From Jiangella alkaliphila (lineage in GTDB: Bacteria > Actinomycetota > Actinomycetes > Jiangellales > Jiangellaceae), in assembly GCF_900105925.1 (NCBI RefSeq), contig NZ_LT629791.1, positions 4,248,001 through 4,312,000 on the forward strand: a stretch of 64,000 bases of DNA, given 5' to 3'. The notes below the pieces were generated by a model. That model searched no databases and was not told the DNA's origin. It was given only the letters and a program-made list of their open reading frames with translations. Both the position numbers and the translations under genes were made by a program. Shown one piece after another: positions 19,625 to 59,893 of this stretch (its first letter is position 1; each line of letters starts with the position of its first letter).

Positions 19625-20236
19625 ATGACAGACGCAGCGCGGGACGCCCTCGACGCCCTGGCCGACGCCGTGAGTCTGTGGCGCATCACCCCGGCTGCGT
19701 CGAAGGACGTCATCGACGCGGCGACCGACGCTCTGGTCGCGGGGCTCGATTCGCCGAGCCTGGGGATCCTGGCCGGCGAACCGGCGACTGCGACGACGTA
19801 CGAGCTCGAGGCGCTGGTCGACGACACGATGCGCGAACTCGGCCTGGCCCATGTCGTCGACGGCGACGCCGAGCGGGCGGCGCTGGCGGCGATGCTGCGC
19901 CGGTTGACGGCCGGCCGGATCGGCCCGCGCGAGCTGGCGGCGTGGGCGCACGCCCGCCTCGGTCACGGCGGCCATGCCGACGCCCAGCCGTTCGTGCACC
20001 TCGACGACGTCTACTACGTGTGGGCGGACGAGGGGCACGACCTCGGCCAGCTGGACCGGTGGACGTACGACGAGGCGGAGGCGTTCCTGGCCGGACGGCC
20101 GTCGCCCGGCCACGCGGACGGCTGGCTGGCCGGTCCGCTGATGGTGGACCCGCCGCCGCGACCTGTCCGGCGCACGCGCCTCGCCCGCCTCGTCCGACGA
20201 CTGGCGCCGCCCCGCCCGCCCCGCCGCAGAAGTTGA
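19625..20236 (+). CDS. Hypothetical protein
   Basis: 203 aa, not recognised. The first ~115 residues are helical and acidic (MTDAARDALDALADAVSLWR); two segments, ELEALVDDTMRELGLAHVV and GPRELAAWAHARLGHGGHAD, resemble small actinobacterial proteins of unknown function. A conserved-looking core (FVHLDDVYYVWADEGHD) and a strongly basic tail (RRTRLARLVRRLAPPRPP) follow. No signal peptide or membrane segment is visible. Codon use is ordinary for the window. It stands alone between the SH3 gene and the ArsR operon, and a perfect hairpin begins at its last codons. Confidence 0.65.
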   Translation: MTDAARDALDALADAVSLWRITPAASKDVIDAATDALVAGLDSPSLGILAGEPATATTYELEALVDDTMRELGLAHVVDGDAERAALAAMLRRLTAGRIGPRELAAWAHARLGHGGHADAQPFVHLDDVYYVWADEGHDLGQLDRWTYDEAEAFLAGRPSPGHADGWLAGPLMVDPPPRPVRRTRLARLVRRLAPPRPPRRRS

Positions 20237-20293
20237 TCATGGAGAAGGGCGGCTCTCGAGGCGCTCGACGGCCGCCCTTCTCCATGATCAACT
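20231..20293. terminator. 23-bp perfect hairpin
   Basis: A 23-bp arm beginning AGTTGATCATGGAGAAGG (20231-20253) is exactly complementary to 20271-20293 around a 17-nt loop. It overlaps the stop of the preceding gene and probably terminates it. The core GTTGATC-TGGAG recurs in the hairpin between pyrD and pyrF at 50367. Confidence 0.75.
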
Positions 20294-24208: not shown

Positions 24209-25438
24209 TCAGAGTGCGTCGAGCCGGCCGGTCAGATAGCGGCGGTCGGCGTCGGAGGCCGCCAGCCGCAGCGCCTCCTCGTACGCCGCGCGGGCCTCGG
24301 CGGTGCGGCCGTCGCGGCGCAGCAGGTCGGCGCGGGTCGCAGGCAGCAGGTGGTAGCCGTCCAGCCGGCCGGACGCCGCGAGCTCGTCCACCAGCGCGAG
24401 GCCGGCCGCGATGCCGTCGGCCATCGCGACCGCGACGGCCCGGTTCAGCTCCACCACCGGCGACGGCGCCAGCCGGCCCAGCTCCGCGTAGAGCGCGGCG
24501 ATCTGCGGCCAGTCGGTGCCGGCAGCGTCGGGCGCGGTGGCGTGGCAGGCGGCGATCGCGGCCTGCACCTGGTACGGCCCGCCGCGGCGCAGCGTCAGGG
24601 CCTCATCCAGGACGGCGACGCCCTCGTCGATCAGCGCGCGGTCCCATCGGGACCGGTCCTGCCGCTCCAGCGGGACGAGGACGCCGTCGTCGACGCGGGT
24701 CGACCGGCGGGCTTCGTGCAGCAGCATGAGTGCGAGCAGGCCGCGCGGCTCCGGCTCGTCCGGCAGCAGCCGGCCCAGCACCCGGGCGAGGTGGATCGCC
24801 TCAGCGGTCAGCGCGCGGCTGGCGTCGTGCTCGCCGTAGCCCTCGTTGAAGATCAGGTAGAGCACCGCCAGCACCGACGCCAGCCGCTCGGGCAGCAGCT
24901 CGGCCGGCGGGACGCGGTACGGGATGCCGGCCTCGGCGATCTTGCGCTTGGCCCGGACGATCCGCTGCGCCATGGTCGGCTCGGCGGTGAGGAACGCCCG
25001 GGCGATCTCGGCCGTGCTCAGCCCGGCCAGCGTCCGCAACGTCAGCGCGACCCTGGCCTCGAACGGCAGCGCCGGGTGGCAGCAGGTGAAGATCAGCCGG
25101 AGCCGCTCGTCCGGGATCTCCTCGGCGGTCGACTCGTCCGGCTCCCGCGCCAGCACGGCCAGCTGGCGCAGCTTGGCCTTTCCGGCGGCGTCACGGCGCA
25201 GCCGGTCGGTCGCGCGGTGCCGGGCCGTCGTGGTGAGCCAGGCGCCCGGCCGGTCCGGGACGCCGTCGCGCCGCCACGCCGTCAGCGCCGTCGCGAACGC
25301 CTCCTGCGCGCTGTCCTCGGCCAGGTCCCAGTCGCGGGTCTGCCCGATGAGCGTCGCGACGACCTGGCCCCACTCGTCCCGGTAGGCCGCGTCGACCGCG
25401 GCCCGCACCATCTCATCGGGACTGACGTCAGACCACAC
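24209..25438 (-). CDS. ECF sigma factor, ECF42-type with C-terminal TPR-like domain
   Basis: 409 aa from GTG 25438 (TTG 25450 is too close to AAGGAGG). Sigma region 2 includes DWDLAEDSAQEAFATALTAW and RPGAWLTTTARHRATDRLRR; region 4 includes LTLRTLAGLSTAEIARAFLT. A long C-terminal helical domain (from ~190; LIFNEGYGEHDASRALTAEA, PVVELNRAVAVAM) is diagnostic of ECF42 (DUF6596). ECF42 sigmas have no anti-sigma factor; the C-terminal domain modulates activity, and a DGPF protein is co-encoded, as here 30 bp upstream. It probably directs transcription of its own operon. Confidence 0.92.
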   Translation of the reverse strand: MWSDVSPDEMVRAAVDAAYRDEWGQVVATLIGQTRDWDLAEDSAQEAFATALTAWRRDGVPDRPGAWLTTTARHRATDRLRRDAAGKAKLRQLAVLAREPDESTAEEIPDERLRLIFTCCHPALPFEARVALTLRTLAGLSTAEIARAFLTAEPTMAQRIVRAKRKIAEAGIPYRVPPAELLPERLASVLAVLYLIFNEGYGEHDASRALTAEAIHLARVLGRLLPDEPEPRGLLALMLLHEARRSTRVDDGVLVPLERQDRSRWDRALIDEGVAVLDEALTLRRGGPYQVQAAIAACHATAPDAAGTDWPQIAALYAELGRLAPSPVVELNRAVAVAMADGIAAGLALVDELAASGRLDGYHLLPATRADLLRRDGRTAEARAAYEEALRLAASDADRRYLTGRLDAL

Positions 25439-25468
25439 GGTCGGCTGCAACCTCCTTGACGTCCGCCG

Positions 25469-25804
25469 TCATTCCCAGACCGGGCGGATCTCGACGCCGC
25501 CCCACCGCGCGTACGGGTGACCGGCGGCGATCGCGATCGCCTCGTCCAGGTCGGCGCACTCGATGAGCACTACGCCGCCGACGAAGTCCTTGGTCTCGGC
25601 GAACGGCCCGTCCGAGACCAGCGTCTCGCCGTCGCGGAACCGCACCGTCGTGGCCGACGCGACCGGCCGCAGCCGCACCCCGAACCGCTCGGCGCCGCGG
25701 CGCCGCAGGTCGGCCTCCCACGCCTGGTGGACAGGGTCGGCGTCCATCTCCTCGTTGCTCGGCGACCTCGACTCGTCGTCACTGATCAGCAGCACGTATT
25801 TCAT
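25469..25804 (-). CDS. DGPF / YCII-related protein, ECF42 partner
   Basis: 111 aa from ATG 25804 (MKYVLLISDDESRSP). It contains SDGPFAETKDFVGGVVLIEC, the DGPF motif that names the group, and ends HPYARWGGVEIRPVWE. The fold is the ferredoxin-like YCII domain. Genes for such proteins are the standard partners of ECF42 sigma factors and are usually their targets; the biochemical role is unknown. Upstream in-frame codons to 25879 look non-native. Confidence 0.92.
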   Translation of the reverse strand: MKYVLLISDDESRSPSNEEMDADPVHQAWEADLRRRGAERFGVRLRPVASATTVRFRDGETLVSDGPFAETKDFVGGVVLIECADLDEAIAIAAGHPYARWGGVEIRPVWE

Positions 25805-25933
25805 GGACCGAGTCTGGCACCGCTCGGGCGGCGTGTCGTCAGGCCTCGGTGAGCCGGATGACCGGGCATTGACGCTCACTATTGGCCTGGCACGTCGCGA
25901 ACCGCGGGTTGGCCTCGACGACCAGCCGCACTA

Positions 25934-25987
25934 CCCTATCATTCCGTAAATGACTTGGCGTATGGAGATGTTTACGGAATGATAGGG
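25934..25987. promoter_or_regulatory. 17-bp inverted operator before the excisionase-like gene
   Basis: CCCTATCATTCCGTAAA (25934-25950) is perfectly complementary to 25971-25987, with a 20-bp centre. The arms are strikingly AT-rich for this genome. Arm-to-arm centre spacing is ~37 bp, and the second arm ends 3 bp before the ATG at 25991. This suggests cooperative binding by the regulator encoded immediately downstream, shutting off its own promoter. Confidence 0.75.
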
Positions 25988-25990
25988 AGT

Positions 25991-26422
25991 ATGAGCGCGC
26001 TTTACTCCGCCGAGGACGTCGCCGAGCTCCTTGGGCTGCACGTCCGCACGGTGCGCGGCTACGTGCGCGACGGCCGGCTGCCGGCGGTACGCATCGGCAA
26101 GCAGTACCGCATCGCGGCCGAGGACGTCGACGCGCTGACGGGCGGCCGCACCGCCGCGGCCCGCCCCGAGCCGGCGGCGACGTCGCCGCGGGTGGAGGTG
26201 TCGGCCATCGTGCAGCTCGACGGCGTCGACCGGTCGACCGTCGACCGCCTCACCACGCTCGTGACGGCCGCGGCCGGCGGCCGGTCCGGCGGCGCGCGGC
26301 TGCACGTCCAGACCGTGTACGACCCGCACCGGCACAGCCTGAAGATCGTGGCCATCGGCAGCCCCGGCGACACCGCGGCGCTGGTCGGCCTCGTCGGCAC
26401 GTTCACCGACTCGGAGTTGTGA
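25991..26422 (+). CDS. MerR/excisionase-type HTH regulator with C-terminal sensor
   Basis: 143 aa. YSAEDVAELLGLHVRTVRGY then VRDGRLPAVRIGKQYRIAAE is an excisionase-like winged HTH (~4-50). After a linker, VEVSAIVQLDGVDRSTVDRL... LHVQTVYDPHRHSLKIVAIG forms a second alpha/beta domain of ~70 residues that I do not recognise. GGAG lies only 1 nt before this ATG, so translation could be leaderless or begin at ATG 25979. The flanking inverted repeat is its likely operator. The next gene starts within its stop codon. Confidence 0.82.
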   Translation: MSALYSAEDVAELLGLHVRTVRGYVRDGRLPAVRIGKQYRIAAEDVDALTGGRTAAARPEPAATSPRVEVSAIVQLDGVDRSTVDRLTTLVTAAAGGRSGGARLHVQTVYDPHRHSLKIVAIGSPGDTAALVGLVGTFTDSEL

Positions 26423-27297
26423 TGTCGATCTACCGGTCCGACGCCGCGCGCGACGCCGTCGAGGAGGGCTACCGGGCGCTCCTCGACCGCTGGCCCGTGC
26501 CGGCGATGCGGACGACGCTGCCCACCCGCCACGGCGACACGTTCGTCCTCGCCAGCGGCCCCGACGACTCCCCGCCGGTGGTGCTGCTGCACGGCGCCGG
26601 CTTCAACTCGGCGGCGTGGACGGGCGACGCGGCGCTGTGGGCGCGCACCCACCGGCTCTACGCCGTCGACGTCCTCGGCGAGGCGGGGCTCAGCGCGCCG
26701 GTCCGCCCGCCGCTGGCCTCCGCCGCCTACGCCGAGTGGCTCGACGACGTGCTCGACGGGCTCGGCGTCGCCCGGGCGCCGTTCGTCGGCGCGTCGCTGG
26801 GCGGCTGGCTGGCGGTCGACTTCACGGTGCGCCGGCCGGACCGGGTGGAACGGCTGGCGCTGCTGGTCCCGGGCGGCCTCGGGCGGCAGAAGCACGCCGC
26901 GGTGCTGGCGTCGCTCGCGCTGCTGCCGTTCGGCCGGCGCGGCCAGCGGGCGGCCGTCGCTCTCGTGCTCGGCCCGCGCGCTCCCCTCGGCGCTGGCGAC
27001 GGCGACGACGCGACCCTGCGGGCGCTCGGCGACCACCTGATGCTCATCCAGCGCGGCTTCCGGTACCGGCTCGATCGCCTGCCGACGTTCACCGACGAGC
27101 AGTTGCGCGGCATCGACGTGCCGGTGCTGGTCGTCGCCGGGGCGAAGGATCGCATGCTCGACGCGCGGCACACTGCCCGGCGGGTCCGGCGGCTGATCGC
27201 CGGCGCCACAGTCACGCTGCTGCCCGGCCTCGGCCACGTCCCCGCGGGCTACACGGAGTCCGTCCACCACTTCCTCACGAACGGAGACCCACGATGA
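26422..27297 (+). CDS. Alpha/beta hydrolase
   Basis: 291 aa. VVLLHGAGFNSAAW gives the oxyanion loop, FVGASLGGWLAVDF the nucleophile elbow (Ser), LVVAGAKDRMLDARHTA the acid region and LLPGLGHVPAGYTESVHHFL the catalytic His. All three triad positions are present. The substrate is probably a small ester or lactone; the closest architecture is the MhpC/haloperoxidase-like group. Start and stop overlap both neighbours (TGATG and ATGA), so it is co-transcribed with the HTH regulator and the YqeY protein and would be controlled by the 25934 operator. Confidence 0.88.
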   Translation: MSIYRSDAARDAVEEGYRALLDRWPVPAMRTTLPTRHGDTFVLASGPDDSPPVVLLHGAGFNSAAWTGDAALWARTHRLYAVDVLGEAGLSAPVRPPLASAAYAEWLDDVLDGLGVARAPFVGASLGGWLAVDFTVRRPDRVERLALLVPGGLGRQKHAAVLASLALLPFGRRGQRAAVALVLGPRAPLGAGDGDDATLRALGDHLMLIQRGFRYRLDRLPTFTDEQLRGIDVPVLVVAGAKDRMLDARHTARRVRRLIAGATVTLLPGLGHVPAGYTESVHHFLTNGDPR

Positions 27298-27689
27298 CCA
27301 GCGAGGTCCAGGCGCTGCGCGACCGGCTCCGCGCCGACCTCACCGCCGCGATGAAGGCGCGCAGGCCCGACGTCGTCACCGCGCTGCGGACCGCCCTGGC
27401 CGCCGTCGACAACGCTGAGGCCGTCGCCCCGAGCGAGCAGCCGAGCGCGGCCACCAGCGAGCACGTCGCCGGCGCCCACACCGGGCTCGGCGCGGCCGAG
27501 GCGGAGCGGCGCGAGCTGACCGCCGGCGACGTCCGGTCGATCCTGCGGGCGCAGGTGAGCGAGCGGCGTACCGAGGCCGAGCGGTACGACGCGCACGGCC
27601 GTCACGACGCCGCCGACCGGCTCCGCCGCGAGGCCGACGCGCTGGTCCCGTACCTCGGGTCCCAGGAGGGCCGGGCAGACCGGCGATGA
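27294..27689 (+). CDS. GatB/YqeY-domain protein
   Basis: 131 aa. LRDRLRADLTAAMKARRPDV then ALRTALAAVDNAEAV and LTAGDVRSILRAQVSERRTE match the YqeY family, a stand-alone version of the helical tail of GatB that binds tRNA in the amidotransferase. The length is shorter than typical YqeY (~150). A linker (PSEQPSAATSEHVAGAHTGL) is inserted between the two halves. It overlaps the hydrolase stop by 4 nt. Role unknown; it may have a tRNA-related activity. Confidence 0.85.
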   Translation: MTSEVQALRDRLRADLTAAMKARRPDVVTALRTALAAVDNAEAVAPSEQPSAATSEHVAGAHTGLGAAEAERRELTAGDVRSILRAQVSERRTEAERYDAHGRHDAADRLRREADALVPYLGSQEGRADRR

Positions 27690-27807
27690 GAGGGGGCCGG
27701 AGGCCTCTTCGACGTCGTCGGTTCGAGACGCCGAGCCAGGGTGACCGTACCTGCGACCATGCCCGGCACGACGACATCCAGGAGCTAGGACGGCGTAGCG
27801 TTGAGTC

Positions 27808-28695
27808 ATGGCGGATACCGACAGCGCCGCGTCCACGCCCGGCGACCTGGCCCGGCGGCTCGACGCCGCCGGATACCTGGCCGACGACGGGCTGGCGACG
27901 GCGGCGTTCCTCGCGTTGCGCATGGGCCGGCCGCTGTTCCTCGAGGGCGAGGCCGGGGTGGGCAAGACGTCGCTCGCCCAGGCGCTGGCCGAGGTGCTCG
28001 GCGCGCCGCTGATCCGGCTGCAGTGCTACGAGGGCGTCGACGCCGCGCAGGCGCTGTACGACTGGGACTTCCCACGCCAGCTGCTGCACCTGCGCGCGGC
28101 CGAGGCGGCCGGCGTCACCGACGTCGACCAGCTCGAGCACGAGCTGTACGACCGCCGGTTCCTGCTGGCCCGGCCGCTGCTGCGGGCGCTGGAGACGACG
28201 CCGTCGGTGCTGCTGGTCGACGAGGTCGACCGCGCCGACGACGAGTTCGAGGCGTTCCTGCTCGAGGTGCTGTCCGACTTCACCATCTCGATCCCCGAGC
28301 TCGGCACCGTCCGCGCCGAGACGCCGCCGGTCGTCGTCGTCACGAGCAACCGCACCCGCGAGGTGCACGATGCGCTCAAGCGGCGTTGCCTCTACCACTG
28401 GCTGGCGCACCCGACGTTCGAGCGCGAGGTCGCGGTCATCCGGCGGCGGCTGCCCGGCGTGAGCGAGCGGCTGGCCGATGACGTCGCCCGCGCGGTGCAG
28501 CGGCTGCGCGGCGCCGACCTGCTGAAGCCGCCCGGGCTGGCCGAGTCGATCGACTGGGTGACGGCGCTGACGGCGCTCGGCGCGACCGAGCTGTCGGCCG
28601 ACCTCGCGACCCGGACGCTCGGCGCGGTGCTCAAGTACCAGGAGGACACCGAGCGGATCATGGGCGAGGTCGCGGAGCTGGCCGGCCGGCCATGA
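27808..28695 (+). CDS. coxD: MoxR/CoxD-type AAA+ ATPase
   Basis: 295 aa. Walker A is GEAGVGKTSLAQAL (~52), Walker B SVLLVDEVDRADDEFEAFLL (~135) and the sensor region VTSNRTREVHDALKRRCLYH. CoxD-like MoxR ATPases act with a VWA protein to mature molybdenum hydroxylases such as CO dehydrogenase or xanthine dehydrogenase, for example in cofactor sulfuration. The next gene is the VWA partner, overlapping by 4 nt, and XdhC follows. No hydroxylase subunit gene is present in the window. The coxD symbol is by family, not proven function. Confidence 0.88.
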   Translation: MADTDSAASTPGDLARRLDAAGYLADDGLATAAFLALRMGRPLFLEGEAGVGKTSLAQALAEVLGAPLIRLQCYEGVDAAQALYDWDFPRQLLHLRAAEAAGVTDVDQLEHELYDRRFLLARPLLRALETTPSVLLVDEVDRADDEFEAFLLEVLSDFTISIPELGTVRAETPPVVVVTSNRTREVHDALKRRCLYHWLAHPTFEREVAVIRRRLPGVSERLADDVARAVQRLRGADLLKPPGLAESIDWVTALTALGATELSADLATRTLGAVLKYQEDTERIMGEVAELAGRP

Positions 28696-59442: not shown

Positions 59443-59893
59443 CTAAGAACGGGCAGCTATCAGGGGGACGGGGGGAGTGTGGGCACAGCCCGACTGAAGG
59501 TCGAGTCGACGTCGATAGCGCCGGCCGTCCTCGATGTCGGGGGCCGTGGTCTGGGTGTGTCGAGGACGGTTTCTGCCGTCGAGGACGGCTGGGCGGGTCC
59601 TGGTCTGGCGTTACGTCGTGGTCTGCCGTGACGCGAAACGGAGGATTCGGGGCTCGTGGCGTGACTGGAGACCAGGACGTGACGGCAGACCAGGAGCCCG
59701 ACGGACACCATCCTGGGTGTGGAGCGCGTCCTGGGTGTGAGGCGCGTTTCCGGGCCTGTTTCGGCGGTTCGGCGCGACTCACACCCAGGACGCGCCTCAC
59801 ACCCAGGAAGCCAACGGTGCAAATCGGGCGCGGGCTGTGCCCGGTTCTTCCCCGTCCCCCTGAAAGCTGCCTAAGAACGGGCAGCAGGGGGAC
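59443..59893. repeat. Nested inverted/direct repeat region beside the IS
   Basis: This ~450-bp gene-free stretch has three layers. (1) 15-bp direct repeats CTAAGAACGGGCAGC at 59443-59457 and 59871-59885. (2) 40-nt outer inverted arms at 59453-59492 and 59831-59870, identical except for a 7-nt block and one other base. (3) An inner hairpin, 59711-59746 with 59773-59808, each arm made of two tandem 18-mers beginning TCCTGGGTGTG. Further partial repeats (GTCTGCCGTGACG at 59621, complement near 59679) lie between. No ORF is convincing. The IS inserted at its left edge. Confidence 0.75.
59854..59893. terminator. Terminator hairpin after the ECF-type ATPase gene
   Basis: GTCCCCCT (59854-59861) and GCTGCC (59866-59871) pair with 59880-59893, with a 4-nt bulge and 8-nt loop. 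It lies 6 bp beyond the stop of the minus-strand ATPase gene. GTCCCCCTGCTGCCC at 57661 is a related half-site. Confidence 0.6.

Follow-up and report, generated by a model that had tools for sequence, protein, structure and literature searches.

This study concerns a compact regulatory cassette in a 64-kb window (the whole stretch of DNA that was analysed) within the 7.7-Mb single-contig genome of Jiangella alkaliphila. The cassette comprises a regulator of the excisionase family, an alpha/beta hydrolase and a short YqeY-like protein, preceded by a perfect inverted repeat. Its features, in window coordinates, are as follows.

25934 to 25950, left arm of the perfect inverted repeat, 17 nt, 100% complementary to the right arm
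25971 to 25987, right arm of the perfect inverted repeat, 17 nt, with a 20-nt loop between the arms
25931 to 25940 and 25941 to 25950, minus strand, left operator arm read as half-sites (expectation-maximisation (EM) motif scan and phased-array test)
25971 to 25980 and 25981 to 25990, plus strand, right operator arm read as half-sites, inverted relative to the left arm
25955 to 25983, plus strand, proposed promoter TTGGCG-N17-AATGAT
25991 to 26422, plus strand, regulator of 143 aa, HTH_17/excisionase-type
26422 to 27297, plus strand, alpha/beta hydrolase of 291 aa, similar to carboxylesterase NP and YbfK
27294 to 27689, plus strand, short YqeY-like protein of 131 aa, limited to the N-terminal part of the family

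An initial annotation had noted perfect 17-bp arms ending 3 bp before the start of the regulator and three genes that overlap start to stop. The coordinates confirm the former, with the right arm ending at 25987 and the regulator ATG at 25991. The overlaps are likewise present, as TGATG between the regulator and the hydrolase (stop codon 26420-26422, ATG at 26422) and as ATGA between the hydrolase and the YqeY-like gene (ATG at 27294, stop codon 27295-27297). In the window the arms read CTACCCTATC-ATTCCGTAAA (left) and TTTACGGAAT-GATAGGGAGT (right), and the motif scan also marks a third half-site at 25961-25970, next to the right arm.

Judged by its sequence pattern, the operator is a set of phased half-sites in which each arm contains two half-sites of ~10 bp, spaced by one turn of the helix, and the arms are inverted with respect to each other. 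The pattern was found by an unsupervised EM search of the 100-110 bp that precede 46 regulator homologues (48 less 2 that were near-identical), using a motif model that was given no spacing information. The search returned a 10-bp motif close to DWWAGGGAAG, or CTTCCCTWWH on the other strand, with a likelihood score of 310 versus 24-49 in three shuffled sets that had fewer restarts (8 versus 25). There are 169 motif sites in the 46 upstream regions versus 44.5 on average and 55 at most in shuffles, and 60 pairs of same-strand sites lie 9-11 bp apart. Block-to-block offsets have a main peak at 29 bp and lesser peaks at 19, 39 and 49, with the orientation of the blocks nearly constant and only 5 pairs in the opposite arrangement. 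Because same-strand pairs recur at 9-11 bp and the offsets peak at these values, the half-sites would all lie near one face of the DNA helix.

The motif also carries over from one part of the family to another. In a half-split test that used the 38 of 48 regions with <70% identity, the motif was trained on one half and tested on the other in six repeats. Site numbers in the tested halves were 55-78 where shuffling gave means of 16-21, and same-strand pairs spaced 9-11 bp numbered 11-30, with 100 shuffles never exceeding 3. Filtering the operators for redundancy at 62% identity was tried and rejected, as this leaves 8 of the 48 and shuffled pairs themselves reach such identities (mean 57%, maximum 64%); split tests at that level were small and erratic, several without motif recovery, and the 70% cut-off was used instead. 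Individual loci were examined with a two-block score for which the tested loci were held out of motif training and the shuffles preserve dinucleotides only approximately. This array test gave p<0.05 at 45 of 50 loci, made up of 6/6 Jiangellaceae, 35/39 other actinomycetes and 4/5 proteobacterial plasmid loci. The operator of the window reached p=0.0025, which is the floor of the test, with a motif trained outside Jiangellaceae. A further control, made without holding out the motif, used 960 composition-near windows from the same loci; their 95% level was exceeded by 46 and their 99% level by 44 of the 48 regions upstream of regulators. The array stands directly before the regulator gene across 7 actinomycete families. 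The operator that had been proposed from a single locus is kept in homologues, with only 5 of 50 loci failing the array test.

The notion of a 17-bp inverted operator survives in part, for the arms are inverted but what they form is a half-site array in two inverted blocks instead of a single palindrome. A simple palindrome common to the homologues was tried as a candidate and given up in favour of the half-site motif, because, with 40 shuffles per region, only 14 of the 48 upstream sequences had a best ungapped inverted repeat at p<0.05. The length of the arms by itself is unusual and suggestive only. It is not decisive in 64 kb because 1 of 20 shuffles of the whole window reaches a perfect near inverted repeat of 17 nt, the longest in the other 19 being 11-14 nt. 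What makes the repeat convincing is its location together with the half-site array conserved upstream of homologues. Since the 17-mer has no match at ≤3 mismatches in the 7.7-Mb genome besides the two arms (a reversed-pattern control gives 1), the target of the operator is probably local. Other inverted repeats occur in the window, namely a longer perfect one at 20231-20293 (arm 23 nt, loop 17 nt, arm AGTTGATCATGGAGAAGGGCGGC) and, at 59724-59808, interleaved perfect repeats (arms 18 and 19 nt) in which CCTGGGTGTG/CACACCCAGG units recur.

The array appears to be interleaved with a promoter. All 5 Jiangella loci examined contain TTGNNN-N17-AANNAT, and in 4 of these, the window included, the -10 element ends 7 nt before the called start; at the remaining locus (L002) the distance to the called start is 10 nt, and an ATG slightly further upstream lies at 7 nt. 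Among the 48 loci, TANNNT hexamers are conspicuous at starting points 12 nt (14 loci) and 14 nt (8 loci) before the start codon. We infer a leaderless transcript whose -10 element would overlap the right arm. The overlap of the -10 with this arm and the closeness of the start codon suit autorepression by occlusion. The 17-bp spacer falls outside the 19-20 bp of classical MerR promoters. A search of positions 25400-28000 against Rfam gave no match to an RNA element.

The regulator matches HTH_17 (E 9.8e-16, 58.2 bits versus a cut-off of 27) and the excise family TIGR01764 (50.3 bits versus 28.8), and scores just below the cut-off for the MerR family PF00376 (E 3.2e-6, 27.3 bits versus 28.2). 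The family matches and the array test together bear out the reading of an excisionase-like regulator with its own operator before a hydrolase-YqeY operon. AlphaFold2, run on 8 sequences, models the regulator with a mean predicted local distance difference test (pLDDT) of 80.0 and a predicted template modelling score (pTM) of 0.48. The predicted parts are a winged helix at ~residues 1-50, a linker with low confidence (residues 56-66 at pLDDT <50) and a C-terminal domain at ~70-142. When modelled alone, the C-terminal domain takes a beta-alpha-beta-beta-alpha arrangement with mean pLDDT 87.4 and pTM 0.75. Foldseek ranks two structures highest for the regulator model, a BldC-DNA complex (6ama; TMt 0.83, E 6e-3, probability 1.00) and, behind it, Pukovnik Xis (4j2n; E 0.011). 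In the winged helix L14, H17, T20, L30, G36, Y39 and R40 are invariant in 50/50 family sequences while position 23 varies, and D111 in the C-terminal domain is likewise invariant in all 50. The structures nearest to the C-terminal domain are designed proteins, many of them named ferredoxin folds (VIA Z up to 9.9). Its natural neighbours include part of an amidohydrolase/peptidase (4wjb, Z 8.7), a Pcc1-containing KEOPS entry (9d85, Z 8.1) and KH domains (Z 7.7), where Z values near 8 may reflect merely a common arrangement. The structure searches gave no convincing natural relative of the domain, a result that remains compatible with the existence of one. According to these models, the C-terminal domain is predicted to be ferredoxin-like and the regulator is a winged helix of the BldC/Xis type with an added small C-terminal domain.

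Two other origins for the regulator were considered and rejected. As the anti-phage MADS regulator MAD1, it scores 27.6 bits against the NCBIfam MAD1 model versus a cut-off of 80, and the PADLOC mad1 match (E 3.7e-11) covers residues 1-52 only, which amounts to similarity at the level of the HTH; the hydrolase, the YqeY-like protein and a DUF4180 protein matched no PADLOC model at E≤0.01. As for a phage origin, a search with the Bosea regulator gave only short HTH matches, in two Thermus phage P23-77 records.

The first cargo protein, the hydrolase, belongs to Abhydrolase_1 (E 6.4e-15) and resembles the Bacillus carboxylesterases YbfK (4ccy, E 1.5e-36) and NP (E 7e-36). A Ser-Asp-His triad is kept, presumably as Ser125, Asp243 and His272; with the triad assigned by motif, these are conserved in 27, 29 and 29, respectively, of 30 alignment rows, in which three loci are present twice. 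The second cargo protein matches PF09424 with 43.6 bits versus a cut-off of 27, the best stretch running over profile positions 36-90 of 143 and so ending short of the full-length family. In 5 of 6 short YqeY-like proteins tested the best stretches end at profile positions 87-90 of 143, while the sixth, from Klebsiella, matches positions 1-35 only and stays below the cut-off. Compared with YqeY structures (1ng6, 8xjg), the N-terminal part aligns and roughly the last third is absent; with 1ng6 the alignment covers residues 2-96 of 148 in two weak pieces. The same genome holds a separate full-length YqeY at G000:C1:859877-860311. The YqeY domain of GatB is described, in part of one report, as needed for activity and as a proposed tRNA anchor (PMC4027206). 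A tRNA role for the short protein, which the initial annotation had called tRNA-related, is unsupported because the protein represents only the N-terminal part of the YqeY family.

Homologues of the regulator (query A1, E≤1e-20) occur in 40 of 393 Actinomycetes genomes from 7 families. Within -700 to +1900 bp of the regulator on either strand, the partners at these 40 loci are a hydrolase at 20, DUF4180 at 14, a YqeY-like gene at 8, a methyltransferase at 4 and none at 3. Pfam confirms the DUF4180 label in both proteins that were checked, the rest being assigned by a model built from 8 proteins of the class; the methyltransferase class is loose, its model being built from two proteins and also matching other-strand genes in L003 and L007. 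The same-strand order regulator-hydrolase-YqeY is found at 5 of the 40 loci, four of which are in Jiangella. Outside the actinomycetes, Bosea, Microvirga and one Klebsiella group carry, on plasmids, the regulator and hydrolase with a divergent YqeY-like gene and the array in between; the array is significant on the Bosea and Klebsiella plasmids and has p=0.08 in Microvirga. A further Klebsiella plasmid, Kp3-21, has regulator-hydrolase-DUF4180, and a Burkholderia plasmid has regulator-DUF4180. On two Klebsiella plasmids (L044 4492-7295 and L120 863-4295) the regulator-hydrolase pair and the divergent YqeY-like gene have a class D beta-lactamase gene of the OXA-926 type as neighbour; the paper on OXA-926 contains none of the five context words looked for.

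In a tree of 50 regulator sequences the partner label changes at least 19 times (hydrolase 12, DUF4180 9, YqeY 4), a rough figure given the poor support of 14 among the 47 inner branches. For this tree L003 and L007, both outside the 40-genome count, were set to 'none'. On this distribution the regulator is the stable member, with cargo apparently drawn from a small pool. A fixed hydrolase-YqeY pairing was rejected; it is contradicted by L001 (regulator and YqeY without hydrolase), by hydrolase-only loci and by one Jiangella genome described below. The proposal of a self-contained module thus holds insofar as the module recurs elsewhere, but its gene set is not fixed. The scattered gene neighbourhoods that would speak against such a module are half present, in that a hydrolase, a YqeY-like or a DUF4180 gene may each be present or missing behind the same regulator.

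Within Jiangella the regulator is present in 5 of 12 genomes, the window's own included, and 4 of these 5 carry all three genes, J. aurantiaca being without the hydrolase. The locus is also present in records of J. anatolica and J. rhizosphaerae. Genome G009 has a lone YqeY-like gene (L092 1102-1467), 77% identical and in the same place, without the regulator, the hydrolase or upstream motif sites. The module is absent from G005, G012 and G014, which have an F420H2-dependent reductase-like gene between YCII and MoxR; in G007, G010 and G015 the available flanks show MoxR without YCII and are uninformative on the module site. Upstream of the module in J. rhizosphaerae lies an open reading frame (ORF) that reads like the reductase-like gene. 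The window retains part of such a gene on its left flank, outside the module.

25839 to 25921, minus strand, 3' remnant of the F420H2-dependent reductase-like gene, with its stop codon at 25839-25841

Window positions 25784-25921 align to the junction of YCII and the PF04075 gene of G014 and G005, and positions 25782-25929 to that of G012; the intact gene of G014, the only one tested for PF04075, matches the family with E 1.9e-25. The remnant ends ~10 bp before the operator, and a similar gene is found in G005 and G012, plus an ORF in L006. By its alignment, the remnant appears to mark a deletion or replacement in the strain of the window. Further left, at 24212-25801 on the minus strand, a Sigma-70-like factor (Sigma70_r2/r4 and DUF6596) lies downstream of the YCII protein gene. 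It is syntenic across several Jiangella genomes and adjoins the module, from which it is apparently separate.

The closest known parallel is BldC of Streptomyces, which has the same winged-helix fold (Foldseek 6ama) and, as far as it is described, likewise uses AT-rich half-sites that contain C-G pairs and are spaced by about a helical turn. In passages of PMC5859096 BldC is described as a winged helix alone, a pleiotropic regulator that binds direct repeats head-to-tail with consensus AATTXXXX(C). According to part of PMC11963761, these repeats measure 9 bp on whiI and on smeA-sffA are spaced by one turn of DNA, and the same source groups RdfS, BldC and lambda Xis as forming head-to-tail oligomers or cooperative filaments. 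The direct-repeat spacing of the BldC type is present at our locus, where head-to-tail binding is predicted from the DNA pattern. In contrast to BldC as so described, the regulator here has 143 aa with a second predicted domain, and its operator consists of inverted half-site blocks and occurs just once in the genome. Excisionases and recombination directionality factors such as Pukovnik Xis and RdfS share the HTH_17/excise family; in contrast to these, the regulator here would sit upstream of its own gene, before enzyme-type cargo, and is not known to have an attachment site. Classical MerR regulators share a related DNA-binding domain and an overall inverted symmetry, but their promoter spacer is 19-20 bp (as given in part of PMC5859096) versus a proposed 17 bp and 10-bp phased half-sites here, and in place of their long helix the model here has a C-terminal alpha/beta domain. 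In a search of the open literature we found no on-topic paper linking an excisionase-family regulator with a hydrolase or YqeY operon, none on a BldC-like or MerR regulator with a ferredoxin-like dimerization domain, and none on YqeY with a GatB tail domain.

The DNA itself shows the overlapping genes, the inverted and phased array, the conservation of this array and the kind of winged helix. We consider it fairly probable that the locus is a local autorepressor cassette, in which cooperative, phased binding covers a leaderless promoter and a signal releases it. In this scheme BldC/Xis-like winged helices would bind head-to-tail to the two ~10-bp half-sites of each arm on one DNA face, and the ferredoxin-like C-terminal domains would link the two inverted arms into one complex. 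The complex would cover the leaderless promoter TTGGCG-N17-AATGAT and keep its own operon shut until the C-terminal domain senses a signal and the complex is released, after which the regulator, the carboxylesterase NP-type esterase and the short YqeY-like protein, presumably as a helper, would be made together. At a guess, the esterase acts on the inducer.

Several observations weigh against autorepression by such a complex or narrow what the array statistics can say for it. An activator or a silencer would leave the same DNA, and the cargo is variable, so no single function is implied. The second domain, called unrecognised in the initial annotation, has gained a predicted fold, but neither this domain nor the whole regulator model has a Foldseek match at E≤0.001; dimerisation through the domain is what we infer from its modelled fold. 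The array test is failed by L003 (p=0.70), L007 (0.05), L073 (0.09), L081 (0.07) and L088 (0.08). Related operators are not independent, and in the array test of 'other actinomycetes' the halves could have near relatives of the tested operator in the training set. The five proteobacterial loci were picked from 11 proteobacterial records among 13 found, several Klebsiella ones scoring alike, and their plain site counts lie within shuffles (19 versus a mean of 11.4 and maximum of 20); as the DNA pattern stands, the evidence there is carried by phasing and not by site counts.

Among other explanations, the most serious is that the regulator is an activator which, once assembled on the arms, would remodel or recruit the polymerase at the promoter enclosed by the array, in the manner of MerR-type proteins. 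The near-threshold PF00376 score makes the winged helix MerR-like. This alternative is nevertheless unlikely, as the proposed -10 overlaps the right arm close to the start codon, which suits occlusion, and the spacer of the inferred promoter is 17 bp in 5/5 Jiangella loci and not the 19-20 bp given for classical MerR in part of PMC5859096. Somewhat less likely still is an antibiotic or translation-stress cassette, in which the YqeY-like, DUF4180 and esterase proteins protect from a stress, related to the ribosome or to drugs, that the regulator senses. In its favour, a 'GATB Yqey superfamily' gene of Mycobacterium abscessus, MAB_2956, is listed among WhiB7 binding sites with a value of 64.05 under a heading ending 'whiB7-Tet (RNAseq)' (in part of PMC10727445), and the Klebsiella copies adjoin the class D beta-lactamase gene. 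However, a second table of that source (on drug sensitivity, by context) marks MAB_2956 'Not detected', the gene may not be the short YqeY form, and the plasmid neighbours may be chance. It is highly improbable that the regulator is a mobile-element excisionase or architectural protein with the repeat as part of an attachment or excision site: the TIGR01764 and Pukovnik Xis matches, the occurrence on plasmids and the presence in 5/12 Jiangella genomes would fit, but the array lies directly before the regulator gene in 7 actinomycete families and not at both unit ends, and the arms are single-copy in their own genome. We give equally little credence to the repeats being merely conserved promoter elements, for although the TANNNT peaks at 12 and 14 nt indicate that the right block is probably part promoter, this leaves the inverted blocks with 10-bp phasing to ~60 bp upstream unexplained.

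The autorepressor reading is retained; the locus is a conserved cassette, portable in appearance and probably autoregulated, whose BldC/Xis-type regulator carries an additional domain. More tentatively, and with some doubt on our part, it may represent a new repressor architecture in which two opposing BldC/Xis-like filaments are tied by a signal-reading ferredoxin-like domain, giving a portable switch of Actinomycetota and proteobacterial plasmids that is reloaded with a small stress or detoxification gene set (esterase, N-terminal YqeY, DUF4180). If this is true, filament formers of the BldC kind would be convertible into ordinary, perhaps ligand-controlled, local repressors. DUF4180, a name that occurs in a single paper of the open literature searched, and the shortened YqeY are also tied to one regulator and one esterase family, a tie that provides a handle on the function of both.

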